A DNA stretch of 64,000 bases, from contig NZ_CP139148.1 in assembly GCF_034058155.1 (NCBI RefSeq), forward strand, positions 4,402,001 through 4,466,000, given 5' to 3'. The position numbers and the translations under genes are program-made. Origin of the DNA: Flavobacterium sp. KACC 22761 (lineage in GTDB: Bacteria; Bacteroidota; Bacteroidia; Flavobacteriales; Flavobacteriaceae). The notes under the pieces are model-generated. The model made no database searches, was not told the origin of the DNA, and saw only the letters and a program-made list of their open reading frames with translations. This document shows, in pieces, positions 17,839-51,530 of this stretch (positions are counted from its first letter, which is position 1; every line of letters starts with the position of its first letter).

Positions 17839-17921
17839 CGATATATAGTTTGGCATAATTAGCTCCCGAATATTCAATTATCTAATAATCAAATAGTTAC
17901 AAATTAGGTTCGGTTTTAGTT
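17839..17921 (+). promoter_or_regulatory. Putative activator dyad plus sigma-54-like promoter before the hydrolase
   Basis: TTAACGATATATAG contains CGATATATAG at 17839-17848, one mismatch from the dyad CGATATATCG. A GG at 17907 with a G 12 nt later at 17919 (TAGGTTCG-GTTT-TAGTT) gives a weak -24/-12 element, 63.5 bp from the dyad centre. The spacing agrees with four other loci in this window, but this is the poorest promoter of the five. Confidence 0.3.
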
Positions 17922-17944
17922 TAGAGTTTGGCATAACATTAAAA

Positions 17945-18751
17945 ATGTATATTATGCTAACCGAAAACTCTACTACGATTCTTTTTATTACGGGAGCTTT
18001 TGTCAGTAATAAATGTTGGGATGAATGGAAACTATTTTTTGAGAACAAAGGCTTTAAAACCCTTGCTCCCGCGTGGCCGTACAAAGATGCGCCAGCAAAT
18101 GTTTTGCGCGATCGTCATCCTGATCCGCAGATTGCAAGTTTGCGATTGTCTCAATTAATTGAATATTTTGAGAATATTGCAAAAAATCTTCCTCAGAAAC
18201 CTATTATCATCGGGCATTCTATCGGCGGACTTATTGCGCAAATACTCTTGCAGCGCAATCTAGCATCGTCTGCAATTGCCATACATTCGGTTCCTCCTCA
18301 AGGAATAATGACATTTAAATTTTCTTTCCTAAAAGCAGGCTGGGGACCGTTGGGTTTCTTCACTTCTACCAAGAAAACGTTCTTAATGAGTTTTCCGCAA
18401 TGGCAATATGCCTTTACAAACGGCATGCCTGAGGAATGGCAAGACAAAGCCTATTGCGAATCGGCAATTCCTGAATCTAAATTAATTGTTCGTGATACGA
18501 TAACTTCTGTTGCAAAAGTAGATTTTAAGGCACCACATAAGCCACTATTGCTAATTGCAGGATCAATCGATCATACTATTCCCGAATCTTTGAATTTTTC
18601 GAATTATAAAAAATACTCAGACAAAAATTCAATCACCGATTTTAAGGTTTTCCCAAATCGAAATCACTTTGTACTAAATCAGCCCGGATGGCAAGAAATA
18701 GCGGTTTACATTCAAGAATGGATTGCCAAACTGCCTCCACAAAATTCATAA
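17945..18751 (+). CDS. Alpha/beta hydrolase (copy A of a three-member family)
   Basis: A 268-residue cytoplasmic alpha/beta hydrolase with no signal peptide. The nucleophile is Ser92 in Gly-His-Ser-Ile-Gly-Gly. An acid Asp in Gly-Ser-Ile-Asp-His and a late His in Arg-Asn-His-Phe-Val complete a plausible triad. The N-terminal block Gly-Ala-Phe-Val-Ser-x-x-Cys-Trp-x-Glu-Trp is shared with the hydrolase at 46025, and the overall pattern with 51582. The usual His-Gly oxyanion motif is Thr-Gly-Ala-Phe here. The three copies sit beside HisKA_2/NtrC modules, which suggests a dedicated regulated set. The substrate cannot be inferred. An alternative start is the ATG at 17954. Confidence 0.85.
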   Translation: MYIMLTENSTTILFITGAFVSNKCWDEWKLFFENKGFKTLAPAWPYKDAPANVLRDRHPDPQIASLRLSQLIEYFENIAKNLPQKPIIIGHSIGGLIAQILLQRNLASSAIAIHSVPPQGIMTFKFSFLKAGWGPLGFFTSTKKTFLMSFPQWQYAFTNGMPEEWQDKAYCESAIPESKLIVRDTITSVAKVDFKAPHKPLLLIAGSIDHTIPESLNFSNYKKYSDKNSITDFKVFPNRNHFVLNQPGWQEIAVYIQEWIAKLPPQNS

Positions 18752-18790
18752 TAATCAATTAATCATTAACCACTTCTAAATATTTTAATC

Positions 18791-19810: not shown

Positions 19811-19818
19811 TAAATATC

Positions 19819-22731: not shown

Positions 22732-22735
22732 AGCC

Positions 22736-24103: not shown

Positions 24104-24124
24104 GTTTTTTTTGGCTGAGAGTTG

Positions 24125-26462: not shown

Positions 26463-26631
26463 TGATTCTAATTCTTACTCGAACTTTCTAAAGGAAATAA
26501 ACTTTTTAAATCTTGACATAAGATTTAATGGGACAAAGAAACGAAAAAAACAGAAAAGACCCCCGATAAAAATAACCAAGCTTCAAAAAACGCCATAAAA
26601 TTATTTCGTTGCATAAATTAACGATATATCG

Positions 26632-26717
26632 CTACTAAAATAATAGCAGAAAACATAAAAACCCTTGCCAGTAAAGGTTTTAAGAATTAAGGCACACTAA
26701 TTGGCTATTCTTTGGCA
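26632..26717 (+). promoter_or_regulatory. Activator dyad and best sigma-54-like promoter, upstream of the chloroperoxidase-like gene
   Basis: TTAACGATATATCGCTA holds the perfect dyad CGATATATCG at 26632-26641. TTGGCTAT-TCTT-TGGCA at 26701-26717 has GG at 26703 and GC at 26715, exactly 12 nt apart as in sigma-54 -24/-12 elements. It is 66.5 bp from the dyad centre. A perfect TGGCAC at 26721-26726 has no good -12 partner. Confidence 0.5.
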
Positions 26718-26809
26718 TTCTGGCACAAATTATAAAATGACGCAGATGAAGACGGTCAAATATGGTCTTGTAAGCGAAATCTAATACTAAAATGAGCAGT
26801 ATTTTTTAC

Positions 26810-26863
26810 TTCTTAATCTAGATTAATCGATACAGCTGTAAGACCATAATACATTTGCATCAG
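26810..26863 (+). promoter_or_regulatory. Shared promoter block with TTAATCTAGATTAA palindrome
   Basis: 54 bp of which 40 positions are identical to 39705-39758, without gaps. It contains the perfect 14-bp palindrome TTAATCTAGATTAA at 26813-26826 and a minus-7 box TACATTTG at 26850-26857. The palindrome centre is about 37 bp before the box end, a position typical for an activator. It precedes the gene at 26970 by about 105 nt. Confidence 0.6.
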
Positions 26864-26969: not shown

Positions 26970-27785
26970 ATGAGCACATTTAAAGTAAAAGACGGAGCAG
27001 AAATTTATTATAAAGATTGGGGAACGGGACAACCAATTGTTTTTCATCACGGCTGGCCATTATCAAGTGATGATTGGGACGCGCAAATGATGTTTTTCGT
27101 AAAAAAAGGCTACAGAGTTATTGCACACGATCGCCGCGGACACGGACGCTCAAGCCAAACTTCTGAAGGAAATAACATGGAAACTTATGCATCTGACATT
27201 GCTCAATTAGTTGAAGCTTTAGATTTAAAAGATGCAATTCACGTTGGGCATTCAACTGGAGGCGGTGAAGTAATTCGTTATGCAGCAAAATACGGAAAAG
27301 GACGTATTGCAAAAGCAGTAATCATTAGTGCAGTACCACCAATTATGGTTCAAAGCGAATCAAACCCTGAAGGTGTGCCTTTGTCAATTTTTGACGAAAT
27401 CAGAAACGGAACAGCTTTTACTAGATCACAGTATTTTTATGATTTTCCTATTCCTTTTTACGGATGGAATCGTGAAGGACAAACTGTTCAAGAAGGAATC
27501 AAACAAAACTGGTGGCGTCAAGGAATGATGGGATCTGTTTTAGCGCATTATGAAGGAATCAAAGCTTTCTCTGAAACAGATTTTAGAGAAGATCTTAAAA
27601 GTTTAGATATACCAGTTCTTGTATTGCACGGAGAAGATGATCAGATCGTTCCTTATCATCAAGCACCAAAATCAGCTGCATTGCTGAAAAACGGAAAATT
27701 GATTTCGTATCCAGGGTTTCCTCACGGAATGCCTACAACTGAGGCAGAAACAATCAACAAGGATATTTTGGCTTTCATCAAATAA
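26970..27785 (+). CDS. Non-heme chloroperoxidase/arylesterase-type alpha/beta hydrolase
   Basis: A 271-residue cytoplasmic alpha/beta hydrolase close to the cofactor-free haloperoxidase/arylesterase family. The oxyanion motif is His-His-Gly-Trp-Pro-Leu, followed by the family-typical Asp-Arg-Arg-Gly-His-Gly-Arg-Ser-Ser. The nucleophile is Ser95 in Gly-His-Ser-Thr-Gly-Gly-Gly, the acid is in His-Gly-Glu-Asp-Asp-Gln, and the His in Phe-Pro-His-Gly-Met. The length matches the family (about 270). These enzymes are esterases that can also form peracids with hydrogen peroxide. Codon use is plain and Lys/Gly-rich, unlike poorly expressed genes. Two promoter candidates lie upstream, one sigma-54-like and one with a TAnnTTTG box and palindrome. 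Confidence 0.9.
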   Translation: MSTFKVKDGAEIYYKDWGTGQPIVFHHGWPLSSDDWDAQMMFFVKKGYRVIAHDRRGHGRSSQTSEGNNMETYASDIAQLVEALDLKDAIHVGHSTGGGEVIRYAAKYGKGRIAKAVIISAVPPIMVQSESNPEGVPLSIFDEIRNGTAFTRSQYFYDFPIPFYGWNREGQTVQEGIKQNWWRQGMMGSVLAHYEGIKAFSETDFREDLKSLDIPVLVLHGEDDQIVPYHQAPKSAALLKNGKLISYPGFPHGMPTTEAETINKDILAFIK

Positions 27786-27792
27786 ATCAATC

Positions 27793-27833
27793 AAAACTGC
27801 CTGCAAAAGGTCTGTTTTTACAGGCAGTTTTAA
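27793..27833 (+). terminator. Rho-independent terminator after the chloroperoxidase-like gene
   Basis: An 11-bp stem, AAAACTGCCTG (27793-27803) with CAGGCAGTTTT (27821-27831), has a 17-nt loop and ends in T residues. Confidence 0.75.
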
Positions 27834-27845
27834 TCTTATTACATT

Positions 27846-28166
27846 ATGAGTTTTTTCCAACAACCCTCTTTCGATACAGTCACTGAAGCTTTACAATGGC
27901 TGAATTCTGAAGGTTTTACAGCCGATTTCAATATTGATTCAGATTGTCTTCGATGCAATACTACGAAACAAAGCTTGTCACCCGAAGAATTCAAAATTGA
28001 ATATTTATTTCGTTTTGAAGGCGACAGTAATCCTGCAGATGAAGATATTGTGTACGGCATTACATCTGAAATCCATAATTTGAAAGGTGTGCTAACAAGT
28101 GCTTTCGGAACTTATGCCGACAGTGTTTCAACTGAAATGATTAAAAAACTTTCAATACATCAATAA
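27846..28166 (+). CDS. Small conserved Bacteroidota protein (about 106 aa)
   Basis: A 106-residue soluble acidic protein with no signal peptide. Its layout is a short helix (Val-Thr-Glu-Ala-Leu-Gln-Trp-Leu), a Phe-Asn-Ile-Asp-Ser-Asp-Cys-Leu-Arg-Cys strand with two Cys three apart, then Phe-Arg-Phe-Glu-Gly-Asp-Ser-Asn-Pro-Ala-Asp-Glu. It resembles a widespread Bacteroidota family that is often labelled phosphoribosylpyrophosphate synthetase. I see no PRPP-synthetase motif and do not endorse that label. Located between the chloroperoxidase-like and isochorismatase-like genes; a role in the same response is only positional inference. Confidence 0.65.
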   Translation: MSFFQQPSFDTVTEALQWLNSEGFTADFNIDSDCLRCNTTKQSLSPEEFKIEYLFRFEGDSNPADEDIVYGITSEIHNLKGVLTSAFGTYADSVSTEMIKKLSIHQ

Positions 28167-28263
28167 AAAAATGTCTTCTCAAAAGACAAATTCTTTAACA
28201 AACAATTAAACGTTTCGCCTTTCATTGGCTTAACTAATTATAAATCTTAAAAAAATAAACCAT

Positions 28264-28896
28264 ATGAAACCATCTGTTAACTTATTGACCCCAGACAATC
28301 ACGCTTTAGTATTAATCGATTTTGAAGGACAAATGGCTTTTGCTACAAGCAATCTTCCTGTACACGAATTACGTACTAATGTTGCAATTGTTGCAGGAGC
28401 ATCAAAAATTTTTAATGTAAGTACAATTGTAACAACTGTTGCAGAAGAAAGTTTTTCGGGACCTGTATTTCCTGAAGTCGAAGAGTTTTATCCAATTGCA
28501 ACTTCGGGATATATCGATCGTACAACGATGAATACTTGGGAAGATGAAAATGCTTATAAAGCTATTGTAGCAAAGAAAAAACAAAAATTAGTTCTTGCTG
28601 GATTATGGACAAGTGTTTGCATCGTTGGTCCGGTTTTATCAGCAATTGAAGAAGGTTACCAAGTATATATAATTACAGATGCTTGTGGTGATGTAAGCAA
28701 AGAAGCTCACGAGCGTGCTGTAGAAAGAATGGTACAAGCTGGCGCAATTCCGATAACCGCTATCCAATATTTATTAGAACTTCAAAGAGATTGGGCTCGT
28801 CAAGAAACTTACGGTCCGGTAACTTCTTTAATGAAAAAATATGGTGGCTCGTACGGCATAGGAATTCAATATGCACACACAATGCTGAAACACTAA
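28264..28896 (+). CDS. Isochorismatase-family cysteine hydrolase (YcaC-like)
   Basis: A 210-residue cytoplasmic cysteine hydrolase. The fold is marked by the first strand Leu-Val-Leu-Ile-Asp19-Phe and by Leu-Trp-Thr-Ser-Val-Cys119 with the catalytic Cys. A basic residue in Ile-Asp-Arg-Thr-Thr-Met-Asn-Thr-Trp lies where the family's active-site segment sits. The Arg-Thr-Thr-Met-Asn-Thr-Trp and Gly-Pro-Val segments match the YcaC-type subgroup, whose substrates are poorly known amides. It is followed by the amidohydrolase 58 nt downstream, so a joint role in amide breakdown or detoxification is likely. No operon break is visible. Confidence 0.85.
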   Translation: MKPSVNLLTPDNHALVLIDFEGQMAFATSNLPVHELRTNVAIVAGASKIFNVSTIVTTVAEESFSGPVFPEVEEFYPIATSGYIDRTTMNTWEDENAYKAIVAKKKQKLVLAGLWTSVCIVGPVLSAIEEGYQVYIITDACGDVSKEAHERAVERMVQAGAIPITAIQYLLELQRDWARQETYGPVTSLMKKYGGSYGIGIQYAHTMLKH

Positions 28897-32785: not shown

Positions 32786-35077
32786 ATGAATTTTATCCCT
32801 CAAATTATTGCCAAAAACCACATAAAACTTTTATGTGCATTTTTTTTATTTTTTTTAGTACAATCAAACGCTCAGACGCAATTAAAAAAGAATCCTAAAG
32901 AACTAAAAGTAAGAATTGCCGAAGCAGATAATGATCGCCAAAAAGTTGATTTACTATTGCTTTTAAGTGCTTATTATCTAAACAAAGACCACGAATATAA
33001 GGCAGATCTCGATCAAGCCGATAGTGTAAACCTACAGGCCAAACGATTAAGTGCTCAATTAAACTATAAATCTGGAATTGGAAAATCAATTCTCCTTAAC
33101 GCTCAGATTAATAGAGAAAAAGGAGATTCTGAAAAAGGCTTAAAAAAAGCAAAAGAAGCGCTGCAATATTCCAAACAAAACAATTTAACTGAACTTCAGG
33201 CAGATGTTTACTTAGAACTTTCTATGTATGGTGAATCTCTAGATGAGAGAATTAAATACAAAGAAATGGCGATTCCGCTATTGATAAAATTAGGCGCAAA
33301 AACTAAGCAGGCGGGCGTTTTAAAAGAAACCGGTGAATTATACCTTATGAATGAAAATGAGGAAAAAGGTTTGGCACTTTTAAAAGAATCGCTTCTTTTG
33401 TATCAAACGATAAAATTTCCTCATTTACAAGGTGTCTATAATCTACTTTCTGACGGTTATACCCATACAGGAAATTTTGCCGAGGCTTTGAAGTATTCAC
33501 TTTTAGCAGAAAAAACAGCCTTAGCGGTACGTGATAGTTCACTACAGCTAAGTGCGATTTACAATCATGTTGGAATGGCTTATCTCAATCTTCAAAAGAA
33601 AAATAATGCAGCGGAATATTTTTATAAGGGTCTGGAAATAGCCAAAAAGCATAAAGATACAGATTACGTCAGGACAATTGGCGATAATCTCTGTTCGACA
33701 TTTATTTTGCAAAAAAAAGGAAATGATGCGCTTAAACTTTTAAAAGAAATGCAGGCAAATTATCCCTCTTATGATGTGGAGAGGCTGATAAAAGAAAATT
33801 ACCTTTTTCTTGGTATTTACCGAGTGCTAAATAATAATGAAAAAGCCACAGTATACTATAATAAACTGGTAGCTTATTATGGCAAAAATGCCGAAAAAAA
33901 TGCCGAAAACAGATTGCCGATTCTGAGAAGTTTTGTCCGTTATCATTATCAGTTAAAAAACTATAATGAGTTATACCCACTACTTCATCGCTTAGATTCG
34001 CTCGCAACAACAGCAAAAAATACGATAATGCTATCGGATAATTATCTTATCTGGTTTAAAGCAGATTCTTCAAGAGGAAAATACCTGGATGCCATAAAAC
34101 ATTATCAGCTTTATAAAAACATTTTAGATACTATTTATAAAGGTGAGACGAACAGACAGATCAACAATCTTCAAGTACAATATGAAAGCAATAAAAAGGA
34201 TAAAAATATTAAATTACTAACGCAACAAGCCAAAATACAGCAAATTCAAATTCAGAAAGACAACGTAGTAAAATATGTCTTTATTGGAAGTGTTTTAGTC
34301 TTAATTCTCATTCTAGGACTTTTATACAATAGTTTCAGAGTTAAAAAGAAAAAGAACGAAGAACTTGAAATGCAACGTCAGCAAATCAACGAACAGAATG
34401 AGCTAAATAAAAAAATGCTGATTGAAAAAGAATGGCTTCTGAAAGAAATTCATCATCGTGTAAAAAATAATCTTCAGATCGTCATTAGCTTATTAAATAC
34501 ACAATCTGCCTATCTGGAAAATGAAGATGCATTAATAGCCATTCAAAACAGCCAGCACAGAATGCATGCAATGTCATTGATTCATCAAAAATTATATCAG
34601 TCGGATAATCTTTCAAATATTGATATGTCTTGGTATATTTATGAATTAATCAATTACATGAAAGAATGTTATGATACAGACGGAAAAATCAATTTTGTTT
34701 TAGAAATAAAAAATACCTGTCTTGATGTTGCGCAAGCTGTTCCTTTGGGGCTAATTATAAATGAAGCAATCAGTAATGCGATCAAATATGCTTTTCCCTT
34801 AGACAGAAAAGGCCGCATTCTTATTTCATTAAAAAACACACAACAAAATGATTATCAGCTAATTATTTCAGATAATGGTGTTGGTCTTCCAGAAAATTTT
34901 GACTTTGATGAAACAGATTCTCTTGGTATGAGTTTAATGACTGGTTTGAGCGCACAAATTGACGGGATTTTTGAGATGAAAAATGAAAATGGATTAGAAA
35001 TCAAAGTCACATTTACAAGAAATAATGAATTTGAAACTATTATTGAAGATTCTGAAATTACCTTAATAACGCAATGA
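32786..35077 (+). CDS. TPR-HisKA_2 histidine kinase
   Basis: A 763-residue kinase with a signal peptide or first helix at about 13-30, a long periplasmic TPR-like helical array (about 45-480), one membrane helix near 495-515, a coiled coil and a HisKA_2 domain. His556 lies in Glu-Ile-His-His-Arg-Val-Lys-Asn-Asn-Leu-Gln. The ATPase domain shows Asn-Glu-Ala-Ile-Ser-Asn-Ala-Ile-Lys and Asp-Asn-Gly-Val-Gly-Leu-Pro. The stop overlaps the ATG of the regulator (ATGA type, 4 bp), so the two are coupled and cognate. Paralogue of 14130 and 48979. The TPR sensor suggests recognition of a peptide or protein ligand. Confidence 0.9.
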   Translation: MNFIPQIIAKNHIKLLCAFFLFFLVQSNAQTQLKKNPKELKVRIAEADNDRQKVDLLLLLSAYYLNKDHEYKADLDQADSVNLQAKRLSAQLNYKSGIGKSILLNAQINREKGDSEKGLKKAKEALQYSKQNNLTELQADVYLELSMYGESLDERIKYKEMAIPLLIKLGAKTKQAGVLKETGELYLMNENEEKGLALLKESLLLYQTIKFPHLQGVYNLLSDGYTHTGNFAEALKYSLLAEKTALAVRDSSLQLSAIYNHVGMAYLNLQKKNNAAEYFYKGLEIAKKHKDTDYVRTIGDNLCSTFILQKKGNDALKLLKEMQANYPSYDVERLIKENYLFLGIYRVLNNNEKATVYYNKLVAYYGKNAEKNAENRLPILRSFVRYHYQLKNYNELYPLLHRLDSLATTAKNTIMLSDNYLIWFKADSSRGKYLDAIKHYQLYKNILDTIYKGETNRQINNLQVQYESNKKDKNIKLLTQQAKIQQIQIQKDNVVKYVFIGSVLVLILILGLLYNSFRVKKKKNEELEMQRQQINEQNELNKKMLIEKEWLLKEIHHRVKNNLQIVISLLNTQSAYLENEDALIAIQNSQHRMHAMSLIHQKLYQSDNLSNIDMSWYIYELINYMKECYDTDGKINFVLEIKNTCLDVAQAVPLGLIINEAISNAIKYAFPLDRKGRILISLKNTQQNDYQLIISDNGVGLPENFDFDETDSLGMSLMTGLSAQIDGIFEMKNENGLEIKVTFTRNNEFETIIEDSEITLITQ

Positions 35078-36432
35078 AAGAAAAAATTTTAATTGTTGAA
35101 GATGAATTCATTGTTGCAAATGATTTAAAAATCATGTTGCAAAAGGCAGGCTATCAAGTTGTCGGAATTGCTTCTTCTGTTGCTCAGGCCAAAAAGCTTA
35201 TAGAAGAAAAACAACCAGATTGGGTATTGCTTGACATTATGCTCAAAGGTTCCTTGACAGGAATAGATTTAGCTTGGGAACTTCGCAAAATAAATTTGCC
35301 TTTCGTTTACATTTCTGCAAATACCAATCAAACTACGCTAGAAGCTGTAAAAACAACAAATCCCTATGGTTTTCTGGTAAAGCCATTTCGCGAAAAAGAT
35401 TTAGTTGTAATGCTGGACATTGCAAAATATAAATATAATGAAGAAATTGGAACCTTAGCTCCAATTCACAACGAAAATGAAAACAACGAAATTTCAGAAA
35501 TTATCGGCAAAAGTCCGCTTTTGCAAGATGTTATCGAAAAAATAAAACTTGTAGCACCAGCCGAGACTTCTGTATTGATTTTGGGCGAAAGCGGCACAGG
35601 AAAAGAAAGAGTGGCACATTCGATACACAATCTGTCATCGCACAAATCAAATTCCATTGTAATTGTAAATTGCGCCACTTTAACACCATCATTGATCGAA
35701 TCTGAGCTTTTTGGGCATGAAAAAGGGGCTTTTACTGGAGCCAATACTTTGCGAATTGGTAAATTTGAACAAGCAGCAAACAGCACCATTTTTCTCGATG
35801 AAATAGGAGAATTGCCTTTAGATTCTCAAGTAAAATTATTGCGCGTATTGCAAGAAAAAGAAATTCAACGACTTGGAAGCAATAAAACCATCAAAATCAA
35901 TGTTCGTGTTGTAGCGGCAACCAATAGAATTTTAGAAAAAGAAGTTGCCGAAGGACGTTTTAGACTTGATTTGTATTATCGTTTGAATGTTTTTCCGATA
36001 CAATTGCCAACGCTGAAAGATCGAAAGGAAGATATTGAAGCACTTGCATATCATTTTCTAAAAAAATATGCAGGACTAGCAAGAAAGAATGTAAAAAGTA
36101 TAAGTCCGAATGCTTTAGAAGAATTAAACCATTACGATTGGCCGGGAAATATTCGCGAATTAGAGCATTTAATCGAAAGAAATGTGTTGCTGGCCAAAAC
36201 AACTGAAATCGAAAAATTTGATCTTCCAATAAAAACTTCAGTTGCTGTCAACCAAGTTGCAGGAACAATAAAATCAATGGAAGAAATGGAAAAAGAACAT
36301 ATTATGAATGCTCTTTTTTTGTGTGAAGGAAAAGTTTCTGGCGCTGGAGGTGCGGCCGAATTGCTAAAAATGCAATCGCAGACTTTATTTTCAAAAATGA
36401 AAAAATTAGGTATAAAACAAGGATACAATTAA
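35074..36432 (+). CDS. Sigma-54 activator: REC-AAA-Fis (NtrC type)
   Basis: A 452-residue response regulator. The receiver (about 3-125) has Asp54 in Leu-Leu-Asp-Ile-Met-Leu. It lacks the GAF-like insert of its paralogues at 15755 and 46807, so the AAA+ domain follows directly: Walker A Gly-Glu-Ser-Gly-Thr-Gly-Lys-Glu at 171-178, the canonical Gly-Ala-Phe-Thr-Gly-Ala loop and Arg-Phe-Arg-Leu-Asp-Leu-Tyr-Tyr-Arg. The C-terminal Fis-type helix-turn-helix differs in its recognition helix (Met-Gln-Ser-Gln-Thr-Leu-Phe-Ser-Lys) from that of 15755 and 37895, so it probably reads another operator. Partner of the overlapping kinase gene. Targets unknown. Confidence 0.9.
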   Translation: MKEKILIVEDEFIVANDLKIMLQKAGYQVVGIASSVAQAKKLIEEKQPDWVLLDIMLKGSLTGIDLAWELRKINLPFVYISANTNQTTLEAVKTTNPYGFLVKPFREKDLVVMLDIAKYKYNEEIGTLAPIHNENENNEISEIIGKSPLLQDVIEKIKLVAPAETSVLILGESGTGKERVAHSIHNLSSHKSNSIVIVNCATLTPSLIESELFGHEKGAFTGANTLRIGKFEQAANSTIFLDEIGELPLDSQVKLLRVLQEKEIQRLGSNKTIKINVRVVAATNRILEKEVAEGRFRLDLYYRLNVFPIQLPTLKDRKEDIEALAYHFLKKYAGLARKNVKSISPNALEELNHYDWPGNIRELEHLIERNVLLAKTTEIEKFDLPIKTSVAVNQVAGTIKSMEEMEKEHIMNALFLCEGKVSGAGGAAELLKMQSQTLFSKMKKLGIKQGYN

Positions 36433-36858: not shown

Positions 36859-36915
36859 GATTGAGTAAAATCTGTGGGAGAAAATAATTTTAGACAACAT
36901 TCAAAAAAATCCCTT

Positions 36916-37894: not shown

Positions 37895-39475
37895 TCAGTC
37901 TAAAAAGTGTTCTCTTTTAATTCCTATTTTTTGCATTCTGGAAGCAAGAGTTGTTGGCGGAAGTCCTAGCAATTTGGCAGCGCCTTGTGGCCCCGAAATT
38001 CTTCCGTTGCATTTTTTAATCACTTTTAAAATATGCTCCTTCTCTACTTCCTGCAATGTTTTAGTATCTAATGTCGTTTCAGAAAAACTTAGATCTGATT
38101 TAAAAATTTCAGGAAAAGTCATTTCTTTTATAACCTCTTCTTTGGCAAACAAAATATTTCTTTCGATCATATTTTCCAATTCTCGTACATTTCCTTGCCA
38201 AGGATTTGCTTTCATATTTTGGAGCACTTTTTTCGAAAAACCTTTTATTTTTTTACCGATTCTTTCTGAATGTTTTTTTAAGAAAAAATTCGCTAAAACC
38301 TCAATATCCTCTTTGCGCTCGCGCAAGGCCGGCAAAAAAATTGGATAAACATTCAAACGATAATACAAATCACTTCTAAACCTTTGCTCGGCAACTTCTT
38401 TTTCAAGTGATCTGTTGGTTGCTGCAATCACTCTGGCATTCACTTTTATACTTTTGTTGCCACCAACACGTTCAATCTCCTTTTCTTGCAAAACTCGCAA
38501 AAGTTTTCCTTGCAATTCTAAAGGCAACTCTCCTATTTCATCTAAAAAAATTGTACTGTTTTCGGCTTGTTCAAACTTTCCTATTCGTTGTTCCGTAGCT
38601 CCGGTAAAAGCGCCTTTTTCATGTCCAAATAATTCACTTTCTATTAAATTTTCTGGAATTGATGCACAATTAACCTTAATCATTTTGTTTTTAGAACTTG
38701 GCGACAAATCATGAATTGCCTTTGCAACCAATTCTTTTCCTGTCCCCGTTTCACCAAAAATCAAAACAGTCGAAGAAGAAAATGCCACTTGCGAAATCAT
38801 GTTGTGAACGTTTTGCATGGCATCGCTATTTCCAATAATTCCATGAAATCCTTCATTTTGTTCCTCAATATTTAATTCCAATTCTTTAGAAGTCTTACTT
38901 TTTAATACTGCCAATTCTTGTCGACTTCTTTCGCATTCTTCTGTCAAACTAATATTTCGAATCGTAATAGACAGTTGCATCGCAATTCCTCTTAAAATCC
39001 TACCAGATTCTTTGCTGAAAGTTTTGGCTTTTTTGAAGAAAAGAAAAAGCACATTTCGGTTTCCTTTAATATGAGGAAGACAAATTCCGATTCCATCTTT
39101 AAAACCTTTTTTACAAACAGTCTGAATATAATCCGGATGATTTTGATTTTCGCTTAAATTGAAAACAACCATTTCGGCAGAATTCAAACAACGATCAAAA
39201 AATCCGTCATTCAAAACATATTTTTTTGTTTCGGAAGTTGTATTCGAAGATTGATAAAAGAGTTGATATTCGGTTTCTGCTTCATTTGAAGAAGCCAAAA
39301 TAAAATCATCAAACTGAAAATTGTCTTTTAAAACATTTTCAACAATAGCATTAAATTCTATTTTATTCGAAACTTGAGAAAGTGATGCGCAGATAGCTAA
39401 AATGAGTTTTTGTTCTTTTTCTCTTTCCTGCATTCGGTTTATTAGGATTGCAGTTTGATCTATCGGCTTTTCCAT
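37895..39475 (-). CDS. GAF-AAA-Fis sigma-54 activator without receiver
   Basis: A 526-residue sigma-54 activator. In place of a receiver it has an N-terminal coiled coil and a GAF domain (about 25-180), so it should sense a small molecule or redox signal directly, as NorR and FhlA do. The AAA+ domain follows with Gly-Glu-Thr-Gly-Thr-Gly-Lys-Glu and the contact loop Gly-Ala-Phe-Thr-Gly-Ala. The C-terminal Fis-type recognition helix ([14 protein letters not shown]) is nearly identical to that of the regulator at 15755, so both probably bind the same operator. Divergent from the dioxygenase at 39791, with a perfect CGATATATCG dyad between them. Convergent with the esterase-cupin operon. Confidence 0.9.
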
Positions 39476-39582: not shown

Positions 39583-39668
39583 CACGATATATCGTGTAAT
39601 CTCAAAACGAACTTTATCTAAAAATCCTTGAATACTAAGACATTAATTCGAGTGGAATGTTATTTGGT
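39583..39668 (+). promoter_or_regulatory. Perfect activator dyad and sigma-54-like promoter of the dioxygenase
   Basis: CACGATATATCGTG at 39583-39596 is a perfect 14-bp palindrome. TGGAAT-GTTAT-TTGGT at 39653-39668 has GG at 39654 and GG at 39666, 12 nt apart, and lies 64.5 bp from the dyad centre. The same TTGGT minus-12 box occurs at the 51582 promoter. The dyad is also about 110 bp before the divergent regulator, so autoregulation is possible. Confidence 0.45.
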
Positions 39669-39704
39669 TATCGTTTAAAAGTTTCAAAAATGCTTCTATT
39701 TCAT

Positions 39705-39758
39705 TTCTTAATCTAGGTTAATCAATGCAGAAGCATAACCAACGTAAATTTGTATAAG
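39705..39758 (+). promoter_or_regulatory. Second copy of the shared promoter block
   Basis: 54 bp, 40 identical to 26810-26863. The palindrome here is TTAATCTAGGTTAA at 39708-39721 (one mismatch) and the minus-7 box TAAATTTG at 39745-39752. It is 33 nt before the dioxygenase ATG at 39791. Confidence 0.6.
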
Positions 39759-39790: not shown

Positions 39791-40729
39791 ATGGAAAATA
39801 AAATTTTAGGCTTACACCATATTACTGCAATCGCAGGTGACGCTAAACGCAACTTTAACTTTTATTCAAACATTTTAGGATTAAGATTCATCAAAAAAAC
39901 AGTGAATTTTGACGATCCAGGAACTTACCATTTTTACTTTGGTGACGAAGTAGGAAGCGCCGGAACAATTTTGACTTTTTTCCCTTGGGGCGAAGGAATT
40001 CAGCAAGGAAGAAAAGGTTCTGGAATGGCAACTGAAATTGGTTATTCTGTTCCAAAAGGAAGCTTGGATTTCTGGCAAAAACGTTTTGAAAAATATAACG
40101 TAATTTACAATAAACCGGCTGAAAAATTCGGAGAAAAATATTTGACTTTCTTAGATCCAGATGGATTGAAGCTAGAGTTAATCGAATCTAAAACCGAAGA
40201 CAACAGAAAAGCTTGGGAAACCGACGAAGTAAAAGCAGATGTGGCAACAAAAGGTTTCCACAACATTACGTTGACTTTGAACGATATCAAACCAACTGCA
40301 GCAGTTTTAACAGAAATATTTGGTTATAAATTGATTGACCAAGATGTAAACCGTTACCGTTATGCGACTGATGCTGTTGAAAACGCTGCAATTGTAGATC
40401 TAGTAGAATTAGCTGATGAAAAACGCGGTTTGAATGCCAACGGAACTGTTCATCACGTAGCTTTCCGCGTTCAGAATGATGAAATTTTGATGAAATTCAG
40501 AGAAAAAATCGAAGATTACGGATTACAGATTACACCACAAATCGACAGACAATATTTCCACTCTCTATATTTCAGAGAACCAGGCGGCGTTTTGTTCGAA
40601 ATCGCTACCGATAATCCTGGATTTACTGTAGATGAAAGCTTAGAAGAATTAGGCAAAAACTTAAAACTTCCAGCACAATACGAGCCTCAAAGAGAAGCGA
40701 TTGAAGCTCATTTGGTTAAAATAAATTAA
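39791..40729 (+). CDS. Ring-cleaving dioxygenase of the MhqO/VOC type
   Basis: A 312-residue two-module vicinal-oxygen-chelate dioxygenase. The first module opens Gly-Leu-His-His-Ile-Thr-Ala with the metal His, the second carries Thr-Val-His-His-Val-Ala-Phe, and the late Phe-Arg-Glu-Pro-Gly-Gly-Val-Leu-Phe-Glu-Ile gives the Glu ligand. The length and the Gly-Leu-x-Phe-Ile-Lys-Lys-Thr-Val-Asn-Phe-Asp-Asp-Pro segment match MhqO/MhqE-like hydroquinone ring-cleaving enzymes. Such enzymes detoxify quinones, in Bacillus together with MhqD-like esterases. Transcribed away from a GAF-type sigma-54 activator, with two promoter elements in between. Confidence 0.88.
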   Translation: MENKILGLHHITAIAGDAKRNFNFYSNILGLRFIKKTVNFDDPGTYHFYFGDEVGSAGTILTFFPWGEGIQQGRKGSGMATEIGYSVPKGSLDFWQKRFEKYNVIYNKPAEKFGEKYLTFLDPDGLKLELIESKTEDNRKAWETDEVKADVATKGFHNITLTLNDIKPTAAVLTEIFGYKLIDQDVNRYRYATDAVENAAIVDLVELADEKRGLNANGTVHHVAFRVQNDEILMKFREKIEDYGLQITPQIDRQYFHSLYFREPGGVLFEIATDNPGFTVDESLEELGKNLKLPAQYEPQREAIEAHLVKIN

Positions 40730-44712: not shown

Positions 44713-44740
44713 TTTAGAGCATTTTTCTCTGTTATATTAC

Positions 44741-45742: not shown

Positions 45743-45888
45743 AATTATAATTTAAAAATTGCTATCATTTTTTTGAACTAAGGCGGGCAAAGATTAAACC
45801 AAAATACAAAACACTTTAAAACAAGGCATTAAGAAACCTTTATCTTATTTCAAATTATGATATTTCAATAATTAAAACTTCTTTTTAA

Positions 45889-45969
45889 CGATATATAATA
45901 ATTTCAAAATGTCCTTTAACAAGAATGCTTTTATAATCAATACTTTGAAAAAAAGGCATTCCTTTTGTT
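45889..45969 (+). promoter_or_regulatory. Activator half-conserved dyad plus sigma-54-like promoter of hydrolase B
   Basis: TTAACGATATATAA at 45885-45898 keeps the left half and core of CGATATATCG (two mismatches in the last two positions). AAGGCATT-CCTT-TTGTT has GG at 45955 and G at 45967, 12 nt apart, 61.5 bp from the dyad centre. The minus-12 C is a T. Confidence 0.35.
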
Positions 45970-46024
45970 TTTGCAAACCAAATTAATATTGCTTTTTTAA
46001 AAACAATCTTAACGAGGTAAGCTT

Positions 46025-46810
46025 ATGTATTTATCTAGCAAAAAAACGATTATGTTTATTACGGGGGCGTTTGTTAGTCATTCTTGTTGGGAAGAATGGA
46101 TCGTTTTTTTTAAAAGCAAAGGATACAAAACGGTTGCGCCGCCTTGGCCTTATAAAAATGAAACATCAGAAACTTTAAGACAAACAAATTCCAACTCTAA
46201 AATTGCCACTCTTCGGCTTGACGATTTGGTAGAGTATTATGCTGAAATTATTGAAAAACTGCCTGAAAAACCTATTTTGATTGGTCATTCCTATGGCGGA
46301 CTTTTAACACAATTATTGATTCAAAAAGAACTAGTTTCTGTTGGAGTTTGCATGCACACTATTCCTCCAGCCGAAGTTGTTTATTTCAGCTTTTCCTTTT
46401 ATAAAACAATTTGGAGCACTGTTTCTTTTTTTGATTCGGCAAATAAAGCGTATATGATGCCTTTCAAAAAATGGCAATTTTATTTTACCAATGAAATGTC
46501 ATTTGAAGCACAAAAAGAAACATACGAAAAATTAGCCATTCCAGAGTCTAAATTAGTTTTAAGAGCTGTTTTATCTTCGGCTTCAAAAATAGATTTCGCA
46601 AAAAAACATTGTCCTTTATTATTCGTGTCTGGTTCCAAAGATCATTTTATCAAAGCTTCAATTCAGCATTCAAATTTTAAAAAGTACAACAATATACATT
46701 CGATAAGTTGCTACAAAGAATTTCCAGAAAGCAATCATCTGGTTTTGAAACAGGAAAATTGGAAAACTGTTGCGGAATTTATTGCGAACTGGCTCGAGAA
46801 AATTGCTTAG
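46025..46810 (+). CDS. Alpha/beta hydrolase (copy B of the three-member family)
   Basis: A 261-residue hydrolase with nucleophile Ser89 in Ile-Gly-His-Ser-Tyr-Gly-Gly. It shares with the protein at 17945 the start [22 protein letters not shown] and a late Pro-Glu-Ser-Asn-His-Leu-Val-Leu. The acid is in Gly-Ser-Lys-Asp-His. It overlaps the 3' end of the convergent regulator gene by 4 bp. The pair of copies 17945 and 46025 are closer to each other than to 51582. Substrate unknown. The tight arrangement around an NtrC-type regulator suggests a direct regulatory link. Confidence 0.87.
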
Positions 46811-48780
46811 CTGATTTCTCTCTTAATTTCCAATTTCTTTATTTTCGAATTCAACGTTGACGGATGAATATCTAAAATCTCTGCTGCGCCACCAGCACCA
46901 GAAATTTTTCCGTTGCATTTTTTTAGAATATAAAGAATATAATCGCGCTCATTTTCTAGAATAGTTTTGATAGAAAATGGTTCAGCAGTTTGTTCCGGAT
47001 GCATTTTTGCAGACATCGAAAGTTCAATTTCTTTGATTGTATTTCCTTCTGTCAGCAAAATGGCACGCTGCATTACGTGTTCTAGTTCTCTAATGTTTCC
47101 TGGCCAATTGTAATTCATGATTTGCTGCAACGCAAAATCAGAAATAATTGGAGCTTTGCGGCCCAGTTTTTCACTATAAACTTTTATGAAATAATTGGCC
47201 AAATCTGGAATATCTTCTTTTCGTTTTTTTAGAGAAGGAACAAGAATCGGGAAAACGTGCAAGCGATAATACAAATCCATTCTAAATCTTCCCGCCGCAA
47301 CTTCTTCTTCAAGATTTTTATTTGTTGCGGCAATAATTCGAACATCGATTTTTAAAGATGAAGATCCACCAACACGCTCAATTTCTCTTTCCTGCAAAAC
47401 ACGCAACAATTTTACTTGAAGTTCTAACGACATTTCGCCTATTTCATCCAAAAAAACAGTACCGCCATCAGCAAGTTCAAATTTGCCAATTCTGCGATCA
47501 AGCGCACCCGTAAAAGCGCCTTTTTCGTGCCCGAAAAGCAACGATTCGGCAAGATTTTCAGGAATAGCGCCACAATTAATGATAACGAATGGTTTGTCTT
47601 TTCTTGGAGATAAAGCGTGAATGCTTTGGGCAATTTTTTCTTTTCCCGTTCCGCTTTCACCTAAAACTAAAACTGAAGTATCAGATGGAGCTACTTTGCG
47701 TATGTAATTGAAAACAGAAATCATTTGCGAGCTGTTGCCTATAATTCCTTCAAAACCTTCTGTTGTTTTTATGTTTTTTGTCTGTTTAATTTCAGTTTTT
47801 TGAGCAACTGAATTAAAATCTTGTTTCGAATAAATTTTATTGATAAACTGAGAAAAAGTATGCTCAAGAGAACACAAGAGTTTTAAGTTTTCTTGAGAAT
47901 ACACATTTAAATTCCTGCTGTAAAAAGTAAAATGATAACGCTGAATTGATGCAACCATAATAGGAAAAACCAAATACGATTTGATTCTAAAACTGTGAGC
48001 AATAAGTGCTTTGATAGGCGCTTCCTGAAGATTATTGATTAACGATTCTTCACTGTAAATAATCGGCTCCGTATCTTTCTTCGATTTGTTGTAGGTTTCG
48101 TTTAATTCTTTTTCAGAAACTGCCGCAATTTGCGAAAGCTTTTTTGAGTCAATAATTTGGTACAAATCTATATTTTTCCGAATAATCCCAAGATTGTCAT
48201 AATTTGTAGCTGTTACAAATCCTGTTTCTAAATAATCAAAAGGAATATAGGTTTGAATTATTTTTCCAAAAGCCAGCAATGCTTCTTCTTTTTTTAAATC
48301 CGAATTTATAATTTCTGTAATTTCCTTTTGAAGCTGGAATTGTTGCATCAACTGGGTTTCCAAACTATATTGCTGACGATAAAACGCAATTTCCAGAGTT
48401 GTGAGAACATCTTGATCGCGAAAAGGTTTTACAATAAATCCGTAGGGTTGTGTCATTTTAGCCTGATCCAGAATGCTTTTGCTGGAATTGGCCGAAATGA
48501 ATATAAACCCAATATATTTTTCTTTGAGATAATGCGCCAGTTCAATGCCAGATTTGCTTCCTTTTAACATGATATCTAAAAAAACCAAATCGGGTTTTTC
48601 GCTCTCAATTTGCTCCAAGGCCTGATCAACCGAACGCGCAATTCCTGTCACTTCATAGTTTGCCTTTTCGAGAATTAACTGTAAATCATGTGCCTCAATA
48701 AATTGATCTTCTACAATTAAAATTTTTTTTTTAAAATTAGATTCGGGCGAATTTTCAGCATAACCAGAAGCCATTTTCAT
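46807..48780 (-). CDS. Sigma-54 activator: REC-GAF-like-AAA-Fis (NtrC type)
   Basis: A 657-residue regulator paralogous to 15755. The receiver (about 18-140) has Asp69 in Phe-Leu-Asp-Ile-Met-Leu, followed by a GAF-like region (about 155-320). The AAA+ domain has Gly-Glu-Ser-Gly-Thr-Gly-Lys-Glu and the canonical Gly-Ala-Phe-Thr-Gly-Ala-Leu loop, and the Fis-type helix-turn-helix closes the protein. The recognition helix (Ile-His-Pro-Ser-Thr-Leu-Asn-Ser-Lys) differs from that of 15755 and 37895. It is transcribed away from the TPR-HisKA_2 kinase at 48979, which is its likely partner, and toward hydrolase B. Both hydrolases B (46025) and C (51582) flank the pair. Confidence 0.9.
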
Positions 48781-48940
48781 TTTTGTGGTATTTTTAGTGT
48801 TATTACAAATCTAAAACATTGAGATAAAATTACTTAATTAATCGAACTAAATTAACTTTTTTACCAAATAAAAATCATAAAAATAACTTTTAATGTGAAT
48901 TTTCTTGATATTTTTTCAAGCAATCAGTTGCGTTTATTTT

Positions 48941-48948
48941 TATATTTG
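48941..48948 (+). promoter_or_regulatory. Minus-7 box of the kinase gene
   Basis: TATATTTG matches TAnnTTTG and lies 31 nt before the ATG at 48979. It sits downstream of the in-frame alternative start at 48895, which argues that translation begins at 48979. Confidence 0.5.
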
Positions 48949-48978
48949 TTTCACCAAAAACCTAAAAATAAATCCTTT

Positions 48979-51411
48979 ATGAAACTTCGCTTTACTTTCT
49001 ATTTGATTTTATTGAATATTTTCCTCTCTTCGGCACAATCTCCATCTGTTTTAGGTTATGATTTGAAGAAAAAAAGACTGTTGATTCAGTTCTGCTCCAT
49101 GTATTTATATAATGCCAATCAAGGCACAATTGACGCTGATAGTTCTGTTGTATTGGCTTGCAAAGCTTATAAACTTCCACTTTCACTTGCCTATGACGAA
49201 GGTTTTAATAATGGCGAAAATGGTATTGGAAGTGATTTAATTAATAAAGGTAATATTGATTCGGCTAAAAGACTTTTGGCGAAAACAAAAAATGAAGATC
49301 ATATCAAACTCTTATATCAGCTTTCTAATTATTATCTTTTTAAACCCGGTTCAAAACCAGACGACCTTCAAAATGCCAAAAACTTTATAGATCAATCTGT
49401 TGTTGCAGCAAATAATCTAAAAATCAAAAAATGGCAACATGAAAGTTTGTTATTGCTTGGAAAATTCTATTATCAGGCAAATAATCAAACCGAAGGAAAT
49501 AAATGCTTTTTGAAAGTCATTGAGGAATGCAGAAAACAAAATAATCAATTAGGTCTTGCTCGGGCCTTAGATGCGTATGGGACAGTTTTATTCAATTTAG
49601 ATCCTCAGAAAGAAAAAATATTGCAAGAAGCAATTTCAATTTACGCTTCATTAAAAATGGAGGAAAAAAGAATCGAGAACTACGCAAAAATCACAACCAT
49701 TTATTTTTGGGGCGGAAAAATAAATGAGGCAAAAAAAAGGCTTTATCAAAATCTCGTAGATCTGCGAAAAATTAATTTTACCCACCAACAATTTACGGAG
49801 ACCACAATTGCCTTTATTGGCATAAATCAGAGCGATCTTAAAGTTGCCCTTTATTATGCTTTAAAAAGCGTAAAAAGAATGGAAGCAGAAAAAGATTTCA
49901 CACTTGGTGATGTTTACTACATGCGACTTGGTGATGTTTATAATATACTCGGCCACACTGAAGAAGCATTGGAAATGTACGATAAAAGTATCGAAATTGG
50001 TCAAAATACTTTAAACAGTGGATCTTGGTACAAAAGTTTTTTTGGTGCTATCGCGGCATTATCCGAAAAAGGAAAAAATAAGGAAGCCATTGATCATGTC
50101 AATACCATGACTGCAAAATATCCTCCTAATAATACCTTTGACAAAATGTGTATTGCCTATATTAAAGCGAATTGTTATGAAAAGTTAAAAGATTATACAA
50201 AAGCTGAGAAATATTTCAAGGAAATGGATTTTTATGCTAAACAATTGAAAGGCAGCGAAACCGCAAGAGAAATTATTCATCAGTATATTTTTATGAGTTT
50301 ATTTTATGCGAACCAAAACAAGTTAAAAGAAGCCCGATTTTATGCTGATAAGGTTATGGAACTTCGCAAGACTTATAGAAAAGATTACAATTCTGAAGGT
50401 TTTCAGGTATTATTATTCCGTTTGGATTCTCTTGATGGAAACTATAAAGGAGCCTTGAAACACTTTCAAAACTTTAAAATTGTAAGTGATTCTATGTTTA
50501 GAAGCAAGAAAAACAAAGAAATAGAAGAACTTAAAATTGCTTACGAAACTGAAAATAAAGAACAAAAAATCAAACAATTAGATAAAGAAACCGATTTGCA
50601 GGAAACGGCCTTAAAGAAATCAAAATTACTGAACATCGTTTCCATATCCAGTTTGGTTTTATTGGTATTATTAATTGCATTATTATACAATAGATACCGT
50701 TTGAAGCAAAAAAATAATGCCGAATTGGAATTAAAGGAAAAAGAAATTAATCAGAAAAACATCAATCTTAGACATTTGCTCGACGAGAAAGAATGGCTTT
50801 TGAAAGAAATTCATCATCGTGTTAAGAATAATCTTCAAACCGTTATAAGTCTGCTCAATTCACAATCGGCATATTTAGAGAATGATATGGCGCTTTCGGC
50901 AATCAAAAACAGCCAGCATCGTATTCATTCGATGTCGTTGATTCATCAGAAATTGTATAATTCAGAGAATATTTCGACCATCAATATGCCTAATTACATC
51001 AAAGAATTGGTCGAATATTTACGTGAATCTTTTTCACTTGGACAACGAATTCGCTTTGATTTGAAAATCGATCCATTGGAATTAGATGTCGCGCAGGCAG
51101 TTCCTCTTGGATTAATTTTAAATGAGTCGATTACAAATTCAATTAAATATGCTTTTCCAGATGATAAAAGCGGTATGATTTACGTGACTTTGGTGCCCAC
51201 TTCTGAAAACAAATACCTGCTGACAATTGCCGACAACGGAATTGGTTTTGACGCAAATATCAGCGCCAAAAAAATTAATTCATTCGGATTGAGTTTGATA
51301 AAAGGCTTAAGCGACGATTTAGATGCTGATTTCTCAATGGAAAACAAAAACGGAACCATACTTAAAATTGAGTTTTCAAAAGAATTTCCAATTAATCATA
51401 AAAGAAGATAA
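48979..51411 (+). CDS. TPR-HisKA_2 histidine kinase
   Basis: An 810-residue kinase. A signal peptide of about 20 residues (Met-Lys-Leu-Arg-Phe-Thr-Phe-Tyr-Leu-Ile, ending Ser-Ser-Ala-Gln) is followed by a long periplasmic TPR-like array (about 40-520). A membrane helix spans about 550-572, and after a coiled coil comes the HisKA_2 domain with His612 in Glu-Ile-His-His-Arg-Val-Lys-Asn-Asn-Leu-Gln. The ATPase domain has Asn-Glu-Ser-Ile-Thr-Asn-Ser-Ile-Lys and Asp-Asn-Gly-Ile-Gly-Phe-Asp. I prefer the ATG at 48979 to that at 48895: the signal peptide starts there and a promoter box lies between the two. Divergent from its probable regulator partner at 46807. Paralogue of 14130 and 32786. Confidence 0.9.
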   Translation: MKLRFTFYLILLNIFLSSAQSPSVLGYDLKKKRLLIQFCSMYLYNANQGTIDADSSVVLACKAYKLPLSLAYDEGFNNGENGIGSDLINKGNIDSAKRLLAKTKNEDHIKLLYQLSNYYLFKPGSKPDDLQNAKNFIDQSVVAANNLKIKKWQHESLLLLGKFYYQANNQTEGNKCFLKVIEECRKQNNQLGLARALDAYGTVLFNLDPQKEKILQEAISIYASLKMEEKRIENYAKITTIYFWGGKINEAKKRLYQNLVDLRKINFTHQQFTETTIAFIGINQSDLKVALYYALKSVKRMEAEKDFTLGDVYYMRLGDVYNILGHTEEALEMYDKSIEIGQNTLNSGSWYKSFFGAIAALSEKGKNKEAIDHVNTMTAKYPPNNTFDKMCIAYIKANCYEKLKDYTKAEKYFKEMDFYAKQLKGSETAREIIHQYIFMSLFYANQNKLKEARFYADKVMELRKTYRKDYNSEGFQVLLFRLDSLDGNYKGALKHFQNFKIVSDSMFRSKKNKEIEELKIAYETENKEQKIKQLDKETDLQETALKKSKLLNIVSISSLVLLVLLIALLYNRYRLKQKNNAELELKEKEINQKNINLRHLLDEKEWLLKEIHHRVKNNLQTVISLLNSQSAYLENDMALSAIKNSQHRIHSMSLIHQKLYNSENISTINMPNYIKELVEYLRESFSLGQRIRFDLKIDPLELDVAQAVPLGLILNESITNSIKYAFPDDKSGMIYVTLVPTSENKYLLTIADNGIGFDANISAKKINSFGLSLIKGLSDDLDADFSMENKNGTILKIEFSKEFPINHKRR

Positions 51412-51446
51412 TTTGATAGCGAAATCTCACTAATCTAAATTTGTTT

Positions 51447-51530
51447 AGCGAAATATAGCGCTTTTAAATGATAACAAAATCGTACAAAACCACTGTTTGC
51501 TACTACTTAAGCCGTGGCATATAAATTGGT
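51447..51530 (+). promoter_or_regulatory. Variant activator dyad and sigma-54-like promoter of hydrolase C
   Basis: AGCGAAATATAGCGCT at 51447-51462 has AGCG/CGCT arms around an AT-rich centre, a variant of the dyad at the other loci. TGGCAT-ATAAA-TTGGT at 51515-51530 has GG at 51516 and GG at 51528, 12 nt apart and 61.5 bp from the dyad centre. It lies about 50 nt before the hydrolase ATG. Confidence 0.45.

Follow-up and report, generated by a model that had tools for sequence, protein, structure and literature searches.

The 64-kb window analysed here (G000:C1:4402001-4466000, G+C 36%, in the 5.04-Mb genome of Flavobacterium sp. KACC 22761) carries five genes, designated A to E, each preceded by a 12-bp dyad that is followed, at a nearly constant distance, by a -24/-12-like promoter element. 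The same window encodes four NtrC-type sigma-54 activators and three HisKA_2 histidine kinases (Table 1). As an earlier note on this DNA had stated, A, B, D and E encode alpha/beta hydrolases and C a ring-cleaving dioxygenase, which is MhqO-like. The products of A, D and E, 33-47% identical to one another, form a single family of small hydrolases in which the GHS motif is invariant and a D and an H are conserved. Taken together, the gene set suggests a role in the hydrolysis and detoxification of esters and aromatics.

The Sigma54_activat domain is present in all four activators (15755, 35074, 37895 and 46807), in agreement with the number given in the earlier note. Activators 1, 2 and 4 have a Response_reg domain above cut-off and a neighbouring HisKA_2 kinase; in activator 3 (37895-39475), no Response_reg match was found at an E-value of 0.001. 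Activators 1, 3 and 4 lie beside genes A, C and D, respectively. Based on sequence comparisons, the dyads are very probably the operators (enhancers) of this activator family, and the five pairs would be the sigma-54 promoters of one regulon.

Dyads, spacing and promoter elements

The five dyads correspond to one 12-bp motif, RCGAWATATMRY, whose symmetric form is ACGATATATCGT; the D-type dyad, ACGATATATAAT, is slightly unlike the B- and C-type dyads. Dyads A, C, D and E are located within 1 bp of where they had been placed before (17838, 39584, 45888 and 51448), while the position proposed for dyad B was off by 10 bp, its true start being 26621. The distances from the dyad centre to the GG of the -24 half are 63.5, 64.5, 64.5, 61.5 and 62.5 bp for A to E. 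The earlier values (63.5, 66.5, 64.5, 61.5 and 61.5 bp) are retained for A, C and D and replaced for B and E, and the spacing after the correction of site B is tighter than that first described. The promoter formerly assigned to gene B, with its GG at 26703, is located 76.5 bp from the corrected dyad; the element with its GG at 26691 is the better one, and the orthologs keep it instead. On the opposite strand of dyad B, only a poor GG-N10-G, scoring 4 of 8 on the promoter score described below, was found at 63.5 bp. The observation of dyad-promoter pairs therefore holds after correction and is partly confirmed.

At all five sites, a G is found exactly 12 bases after the first G of the GG (GG-N10-G). 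A second element 12 nt after the GG, as initially described, is present with respect to this G; it is usually not GC, as the -12 half reads TTGG, TTGT or, at site A, TAGT.

Our analysis additionally identified a second, distal dyad, absent from the earlier note, upstream of the proximal dyads of sites A, D and E (P = 0.001, 0.008 and 0.001, respectively). At B, only a poor match with 3 mismatches was found, and at C none better than 4 mismatches. NtrC operators are likewise about three helical turns apart. The spacer between dyad and promoter contains an AT-rich stretch with a match resembling the binding site of integration host factor (IHF). Compared with the IHF consensus, WATCAANNNNTTR, to which within the window only sites A and D match perfectly, 30 pairs of loci L236-L315 had a mean of 1.7 mismatches versus 2.5 in shuffled sequences.

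Sites A and B both have TTTGGCAT 20 bp downstream of the -24 GG (17927-17937 and 26711-26718) and TTTGGCA at about 20 bp, and TTTGGCATAAC is common in the A orthologs.

Table 1. Positions of genes, activators, dyads and promoter elements in the 64-kb window
Feature	Position	Strand	Basis or remark
HisKA_2 histidine kinase adjoining activator 1	14130..15740	+	domain search
Activator 1: receiver, sigma-54 AAA+, Fis-type helix-turn-helix (HTH)	15755..17704	+	HTH_8 above cut-off
Distal dyad A, ACGATATTAAGT, 1 mismatch	17806..17817	+	32 bp upstream of proximal dyad
Proximal dyad A, ACGATATATAGT, candidate activator operator	17838..17849	+	motif scan; pair upstream of A in 15/16 genomes
IHF-like element A, AATCAAATAGTTA	17887..17899	+	0 mismatches to the consensus WATCAANNNNTTR
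-24/-12-like element A, AGGTTCGGTTTTAGTTT, GG at 17907	17906..17922	+	promoter score, orthologs
Gene A, alpha/beta hydrolase, esterase-like family common to D and E	17945..18751	+	
Dyad B, ACGATATATCGC	26621..26632	+	motif scan; pair at 20/26 orthologs of at least 83% identity
-24/-12-like element B, AGGCACACTAATTGGCT, GG at 26691	26690..26706	+	overlaps and replaces the earlier-proposed 26703 element, TTGGCTATTCTTTGGCA
Gene B, alpha/beta hydrolase, non-haem chloroperoxidase/arylesterase family	26970..27785	+	PDB 1a88, E 4e-118
HisKA_2 kinase adjoining activator 2	32786..35077	+	tetratricopeptide repeat (TPR) matches below cut-off
Activator 2: receiver, AAA+, helix MQSQTLFSKM	35074..36432	+	HTH_8 just below cut-off (21.3 of 22)
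Activator 3: AAA+, HTH, divergent from gene C	37895..39475	-	HTH_8 above cut-off
Dyad C, ACGATATATCGT, perfect palindrome	39584..39595	+	motif scan; pair at 13/18 gene copies
-24/-12-like element C, TGGAATGTTATTTGGTT, GG at 39654	39653..39669	+	promoter score, orthologs
Gene C, ring-cleaving dioxygenase, MhqO-like	39791..40729	+	PDB 3oaj, E 3e-87
Distal dyad D, ATGATATTTCAA, 2 mismatches	45857..45868	+	31 bp upstream; same 12-mer in 4 relatives
Proximal dyad D, ACGATATATAAT	45888..45899	+	motif scan; pair in 14/15 genomes
IHF-like element D, AATCAATACTTTG	45935..45947	+	0 mismatches to the IHF consensus
-24/-12-like element D, AGGCATTCCTTTTGTTT, GG at 45955	45954..45970	+	promoter score, orthologs
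Gene D, alpha/beta hydrolase, paralog of A	46025..46810	+	
Activator 4: receiver, AAA+, helix HPSTLNSKI	46807..48780	-	HTH_8 just below cut-off (20.7 of 22)
TPR-containing HisKA_2 kinase, divergent from activator 4	48895..51411	+	
Distal dyad E, GCGAAATCTCAC, 1 mismatch	51419..51430	+	29 bp upstream
Proximal dyad E, GCGAAATATAGC	51448..51459	+	motif scan
-24/-12-like element E, TGGCATATAAATTGGTT, GG at 51516	51515..51531	+	promoter score, orthologs
Gene E, alpha/beta hydrolase, paralog of A and D	51582..52352	+	

The pairs in the genome, the genus and the phylum

What stands out in this genome is the clustering of dyads in the window and their pairing with a promoter element. With up to 1 mismatch, CGATATATCG occurs six times in the window versus 0.95 expected, and none of 100 shuffled sequences reached six. 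Genome-wide, counts of the strict motif were close to those of a letter-reversed control, both for the symmetric (4 versus 5) and the asymmetric form (17 versus 13), so that only the dyad-promoter pair is informative; the dyad was dropped as a stand-alone signal. The objection anticipated in the earlier note, namely that such dyads might be as common elsewhere, applies to the dyad alone, which is not over-represented genome-wide, and not to the pairing, which for the strict motif was found in the window only. Six of the 21 strict-motif places in the genome are inside the window, which represents 1.3% of it. A promoter element is located 61.5-65.5 bp from five of these six dyads and from none of the 16 outside places, which comprise, for the strict motif only, 15 from the two strict-motif searches plus an CGATATATCG at 2318597.

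The sixth window dyad, an exact ACGATATTTCGT at 14038-14049, is part of a hairpin, TTGCCGACGATATTTCGTCGGCAA, located between 13986 and the start of the kinase gene (14130), and may belong to a terminator or an operator; the promoter scan found no element after it. In relatives (L156, L160 and L166), a dyad is likewise present at this place.

The promoter score, with a maximum of 8, was tuned on the five sites themselves; with it, 8 of 8 was reached at four of the 128,000 window positions, three of which are at dyads B, D and E. Using instead an untuned canonical sigma-54 consensus, the single-site P value was 0.011 for each of B, C and E, and 0.06 for D. When the five dyads were scored jointly with this consensus, the 5-wide offset windows starting at 60.5 and 61.5 bp were the best of 190 starts, with a sum of 37 against a mean of 22.6 (standard deviation 3.4).

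The strongest support for the pairs is comparative. Within Flavobacterium, we required a dyad with up to 1 mismatch, a distance of 59.5-67.5 bp and only the GG plus one -12 G, the upstream strand of each ortholog being set from tblastn. The pair was found to precede gene A in 15 of 16 genomes (at least 61% identity), D in 14 of 15 genomes (at least 53%), B in 20 of 26 orthologs (at least 83%) and C in 13 of 18 gene copies (at least 80%); no pair precedes A- and D-like matches below these identity cut-offs. The 17907 promoter of gene A, previously called weak, is so by consensus (P = 0.21), and yet it is conserved in all but one of those 16 genomes. In three genomes (G053, G049 and G006), the pair is located 0.7-2 kb upstream of E. 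The 67 gene-by-genome pairs had spacings of 61.5 (10), 62.5 (14), 63.5 (18), 64.5 (20) and 65.5 bp (5), and the DNA between dyad and promoter was far less conserved than both elements.

The gene-weighted promoter consensus obtained from these pairs is approximately AGGCATRTTATTTG(T/G)TT. Among the bases that the search did not require, T at GG+10 and a pyrimidine at GG+4 were present in 100% of cases. The -24 half is canonical (GGCAY); T at GG+11 has a frequency of 0.81, the G at GG+12 is present by selection, and GG+13 is T (0.46), G (0.32) or C (0.14). Sigma-54 promoters usually have C where the -12 half has T or G here.

For a comparison across genera, one genome per species was scanned, which yielded 383 relatives of the A/D/E family, and the best 80 loci were kept. 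Among these best 80 of 383, 17 of the 20 Flavobacterium loci and 14 of the 60 others have the pair immediately before the esterase, the latter including Chitinophaga rupis, C. pinensis, Dyadobacter frigoris, Xanthocytophaga, Pedobacter chinensis, Mucilaginibacter pineti and a Cyclobacteriaceae genome. Together, the 60 loci without a Flavobacterium label contain 21 pairs at 61.5-65.5 bp, 14 of them upstream of the esterase, versus 2.5 expected from other offsets; with a letter-reversed motif, the same loci gave 3 versus 1.6 expected. The distal dyad also recurs: with up to 2 mismatches, a second dyad was present 29-32 bp upstream at 31 of 63 distinct paired sites (64 pairs, one site being counted twice as L171 and L283; named and unnamed loci overlap in some genomes), and at 13 of the 21 paired sites outside Flavobacterium, the background being 0.0017 per position.

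In relatives, the pair is additionally found before a polysaccharide-deacetylase homolog (L252), several further proteins and, in G049, G015 and G054, isochorismatase-like genes (L159:4254, L163:4578 and L165:3981). No dyad was found upstream of the isochorismatase-like gene of the window (27786-28264).

Activators, recognition helices and alternative explanations

The HTH ends of the four activators are alike, and the recognition helix is identical in activators 1 and 3 and different in 4 and in 2. A single rpoN gene (PF04552, above cut-off) is present in each of 10 genomes, this one and nine relatives. We searched for the activator family, whose members reach an E-value of 1e-90 or better, in 32 genomes including that of the window, and did not find it in four of them (G057, G088, G136 and G024; best E-values 1e-75 to 1e-80). 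All four hold gene B or C without the pair, versus a pair at B or C in 21 of 25 genomes with the family (Fisher test, 0.003).

The presence of the dyad also follows the recognition helix. Among the best 80 of 383 loci, the 450 bp preceding the esterase contain a dyad in 31 of the 37 loci whose activators are non-KPTTLE (the helix has no E after (S/T)TL), in none of the 10 with KPTTLE activators and in the one locus with an unparsed helix. The background rate in this comparison was 31 of 461 450-bp windows, and the related species involved are not independent. The G+C content differs between the helix classes (0.54 for KPTTLE versus 0.39 for non-KPTTLE, from partial classes of 7 and 17 loci), so that part of the 0/10 is expected from composition, and the 31/37 is not. 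Where the stretch covered (up to 9 kb on each side) contained no activator of the family, the dyad was upstream of the esterase in 7 of 30 loci.

In the KPTTLE loci, where the ACGAWATATCGT dyad is missing, 3 of 10 carry CGGAGNNCTCCG upstream of the esterase (L275:8811, L294:8831 and L313:8826); in L275, it is located 117.5 bp before TGGCATGGTTTTGCAA. With up to 1 mismatch, CGGAGNNCTCCG occurs at 10 places in 6 of the 10 KPTTLE loci, three of them just upstream of the esterase, and at 3 places in 3 of 21 other loci searched (21 of the 37 non-KPTTLE loci). As the KPTTLE loci are richer in G+C, CGGAGNNCTCCG as an alternative operator of the KPTTLE activators is a lead only.

Several observations weigh against control of the five genes by these activators through the dyads. 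The pair is directly upstream of E in only 5 of 22 cases (at least 59% identity), no pair with up to 1 mismatch precedes the B homologs that 8 genomes have at 67-70% identity, and only 31 of the best 80 of 383 esterase loci have one directly upstream. At most sites, the -12 half is without the canonical GC; under the untuned consensus, site A alone is not significant, with the P value of 0.21 given above, and the IHF-like element is at chance at B, C and E. Four of the 25 activator-bearing genomes (G013, G075, G102 and G114) lack a pair at B and C, the activator-versus-pair tally that leaves out A-type promoters is 19/6 versus 31/24 (Fisher test, 0.13), and neither of two loci with activator 2-type proteins only has a dyad upstream of the esterase. 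Nevertheless, considering the conserved pairing and spacing, the joint absence with the activators and the tracking with the recognition helix, the proposal of the earlier note that the local activators control the five genes via the dyads is well supported by comparison.

An explanation we regard as rather unlikely is that each activator controls only its neighbour, in which case operators would not be shared and the dyads would be alike merely because the activators are paralogs. The adjacency of activators 1, 3 and 4 to A, C and D fits this arrangement, as does the coincidence of the slightly deviating dyad of gene D with the helix of activator 4 (HPSTLNSKI), which is unlike that of activators 1 and 3. 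However, in G006, only an activator-4 ortholog was found, yet the B, C, D and E-region dyads are kept; in G033, only orthologs of activators 2 and 3 were found, on another contig than B or C, and the B and C dyads are kept. With such different subsets, B and C at any rate do not depend on a single activator, and the operator choice of the four activators probably overlaps.

A palindrome of this size would be suitable for many regulators, and the dyad might be bound by one that is not an enhancer-binding protein (EBP), upstream of the sigma-54 promoters of the gene set. The fixed 62-65 bp to the -24/-12 element, the tandem repeat at 29-32 bp, the absence of the dyad together with the activator family and its tracking of the recognition helix across genera make this quite improbable. 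Even less probable is a functionless shared ancestry, in which the homologous paralogs A, D and E would have copied their upstream DNA, since the pair also precedes B (arylesterase type) and C (dioxygenase) and the isochorismatase-like genes of relatives, and the intervening DNA is conserved far less well than the dyad and promoter themselves. Finally, although the sites were picked by eye and the dyad alone is not commoner genome-wide than its reversed control, a chance find from inspecting each site is hardly credible in view of the excess of pairs outside Flavobacterium (21 versus 2.5) and the lack of pairing at all 16 outside dyads of the same genome.

Proposed circuit, neighbouring genes and known systems

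From what is observed here (the motif and its spacing, the tandem repeat, their conservation, their absence where the activators are absent, the co-variation with the helix and the presence of rpoN), we infer the following course for control by the local sigma-54 activators. A HisKA_2 kinase would phosphorylate its partner activator, and activator 3, for which no receiver domain was identified, presumably responds to a ligand. Each activator would occupy the proximal dyad, whose centre lies 62-65 bp ahead of the -24 GG (at about -88 relative to the predicted transcription start), and at about half of the sites also the second dyad, about three helical turns upstream, at about -119. The AT-rich, in places IHF-like, stretch may bend the DNA and let the AAA+ ring open the sigma-54 polymerase at GGCAY-N5-TTG(G/T). 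The output would be esterase-like hydrolases, an arylesterase-type enzyme and an MhqO-like ring-cleaving dioxygenase, produced in response to activators that may overlap in operator choice.

These data point to a candidate sigma-54 regulon in which the geometry of the enhancers is unusually fixed and which is conserved in several Bacteroidota genera. A wider reading, which we hold tentatively and consider nearly as probable as its opposite, is that of a rigid, phylum-wide Bacteroidota sigma-54 module, in which tandem ACGAWATATCGT operators, three helical turns apart, would stand at a set distance of 62-65 bp ahead of an atypical GGCAY-N5-TTG(G/T) promoter. Radiating paralogous kinase-activator pairs would share one operator, so that many sensors act on one hydrolase set, and the KPTTLE helix (Hymenobacter, Spirosoma, Fibrella and others) would have moved to another dyad, possibly CGGAGNNCTCCG.

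Another conserved stretch, TTCTTAATCTAG(A/G)TTAATC followed by TAnnTTTG (26811-26850 and 39706-39755), is common to genes B and C; we take TAnnTTTG to be a Bacteroidota-type -7 element. With up to 4 mismatches, this second box precedes 23 of 26 copies of B and 13 of 18 copies of C. Copies from G057, G088 and G136, which have neither the activators nor the dyads, are among them; the stretch therefore probably represents a separate promoter region that contains a palindromic box, TTAATCTAGATTAA. Elsewhere in the window, 6365-12739 encodes a hybrid kinase of 2124 aa, in which about a dozen HAMP domains are combined with GAF, HisKA and three receiver domains, and 55075-61506 a probable adhesin of the type IX secretion system, 2143 aa long, with 18 matches to the SprB repeat and a Por secretion tail. 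An Abhydrolase_2 carboxylesterase-like gene (36874-37536) is located upstream of the MhqO-like gene C, and the two resemble the mhqD/mhqO pair of Bacillus.

A literature search for sigma-54, RpoN or EBP in Flavobacterium or Bacteroidetes, and for the string CGATATATCG, found no description of this operator or regulon, most subscription papers being outside the search. Sigma-54 promoters have been predicted in Flavobacteriia, in passages that name other genes (PMC12316311), and the accessible part of a Flavobacterium coevolution paper contains nothing relevant (PMC10197871). The kind of circuit is already known, and the operator, the regulon and the rigid spacing seem new. The motif pair also links a group of uncharacterised hydrolases to a family of regulators. 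Additionally, with four paralogous activators in 64 kb and relatives that combine other subsets with the same dyads, signalling through a shared operator becomes testable.

The MhqO/MhqD quinone-stress genes of Bacillus are similar in that the MhqO-like gene C is near the Abhydrolase_2 protein gene; unlike the regulation of the mhq genes, control here is proposed to occur via sigma-54. The top match of activator 3 is FhlA (NCBIfam NF011958), with which it shares AAA+ and HTH over most of the protein and the lack of a receiver, although it scores far below the curated cut-off (423.5 versus 830 bits), and the operator here is not of the TGT/ACA type that the accessible passages of PMC6615313 attribute to FhlA.

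A close parallel is provided by the NtrC systems, such as NtrC at glnA, in which receiver-AAA+-Fis activators act from dyad operators upstream of a -24/-12 promoter. At glnA, two NtrC operators are about three helical turns apart, as are the tandem dyads here. The system described here would work like the NtrC type, as the features that can be read from sequence agree save for the atypical -12 half; the proteins are not NtrC proper (TIGR01818), to which activators 1, 2 and 3 score 348, 349 and 315 bits versus a cut-off of 558.6. The differences from NtrC systems are the operator sequence, the almost invariant position of the proximal (62-65 bp) and distal (about 30 bp more) dyads before the GG, the several paralogous activators per genome, and the targets, which are hydrolases and a dioxygenase.

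In the Clostridiales, the sigma-54 regulons comprise 39 EBP groups, most operators being 100-250 bp from the promoter and fifteen groups having TGT/ACA repeats with a 10-12 bp spacer, according to the accessible passages of that survey (PMC6615313). As described there (PMC6615313), EBP genes are usually near their targets, multiple operators are common and the operator type follows the DNA-binding domain, all of which resembles the present locus; unlike those operators, ACGAWATATCGT is located at 62-65 bp. Compared with the 100-250 bp reported in these passages (PMC6615313), the fixed geometry would offer a clean system for asking why the enhancers described here tolerate almost no change in spacing.

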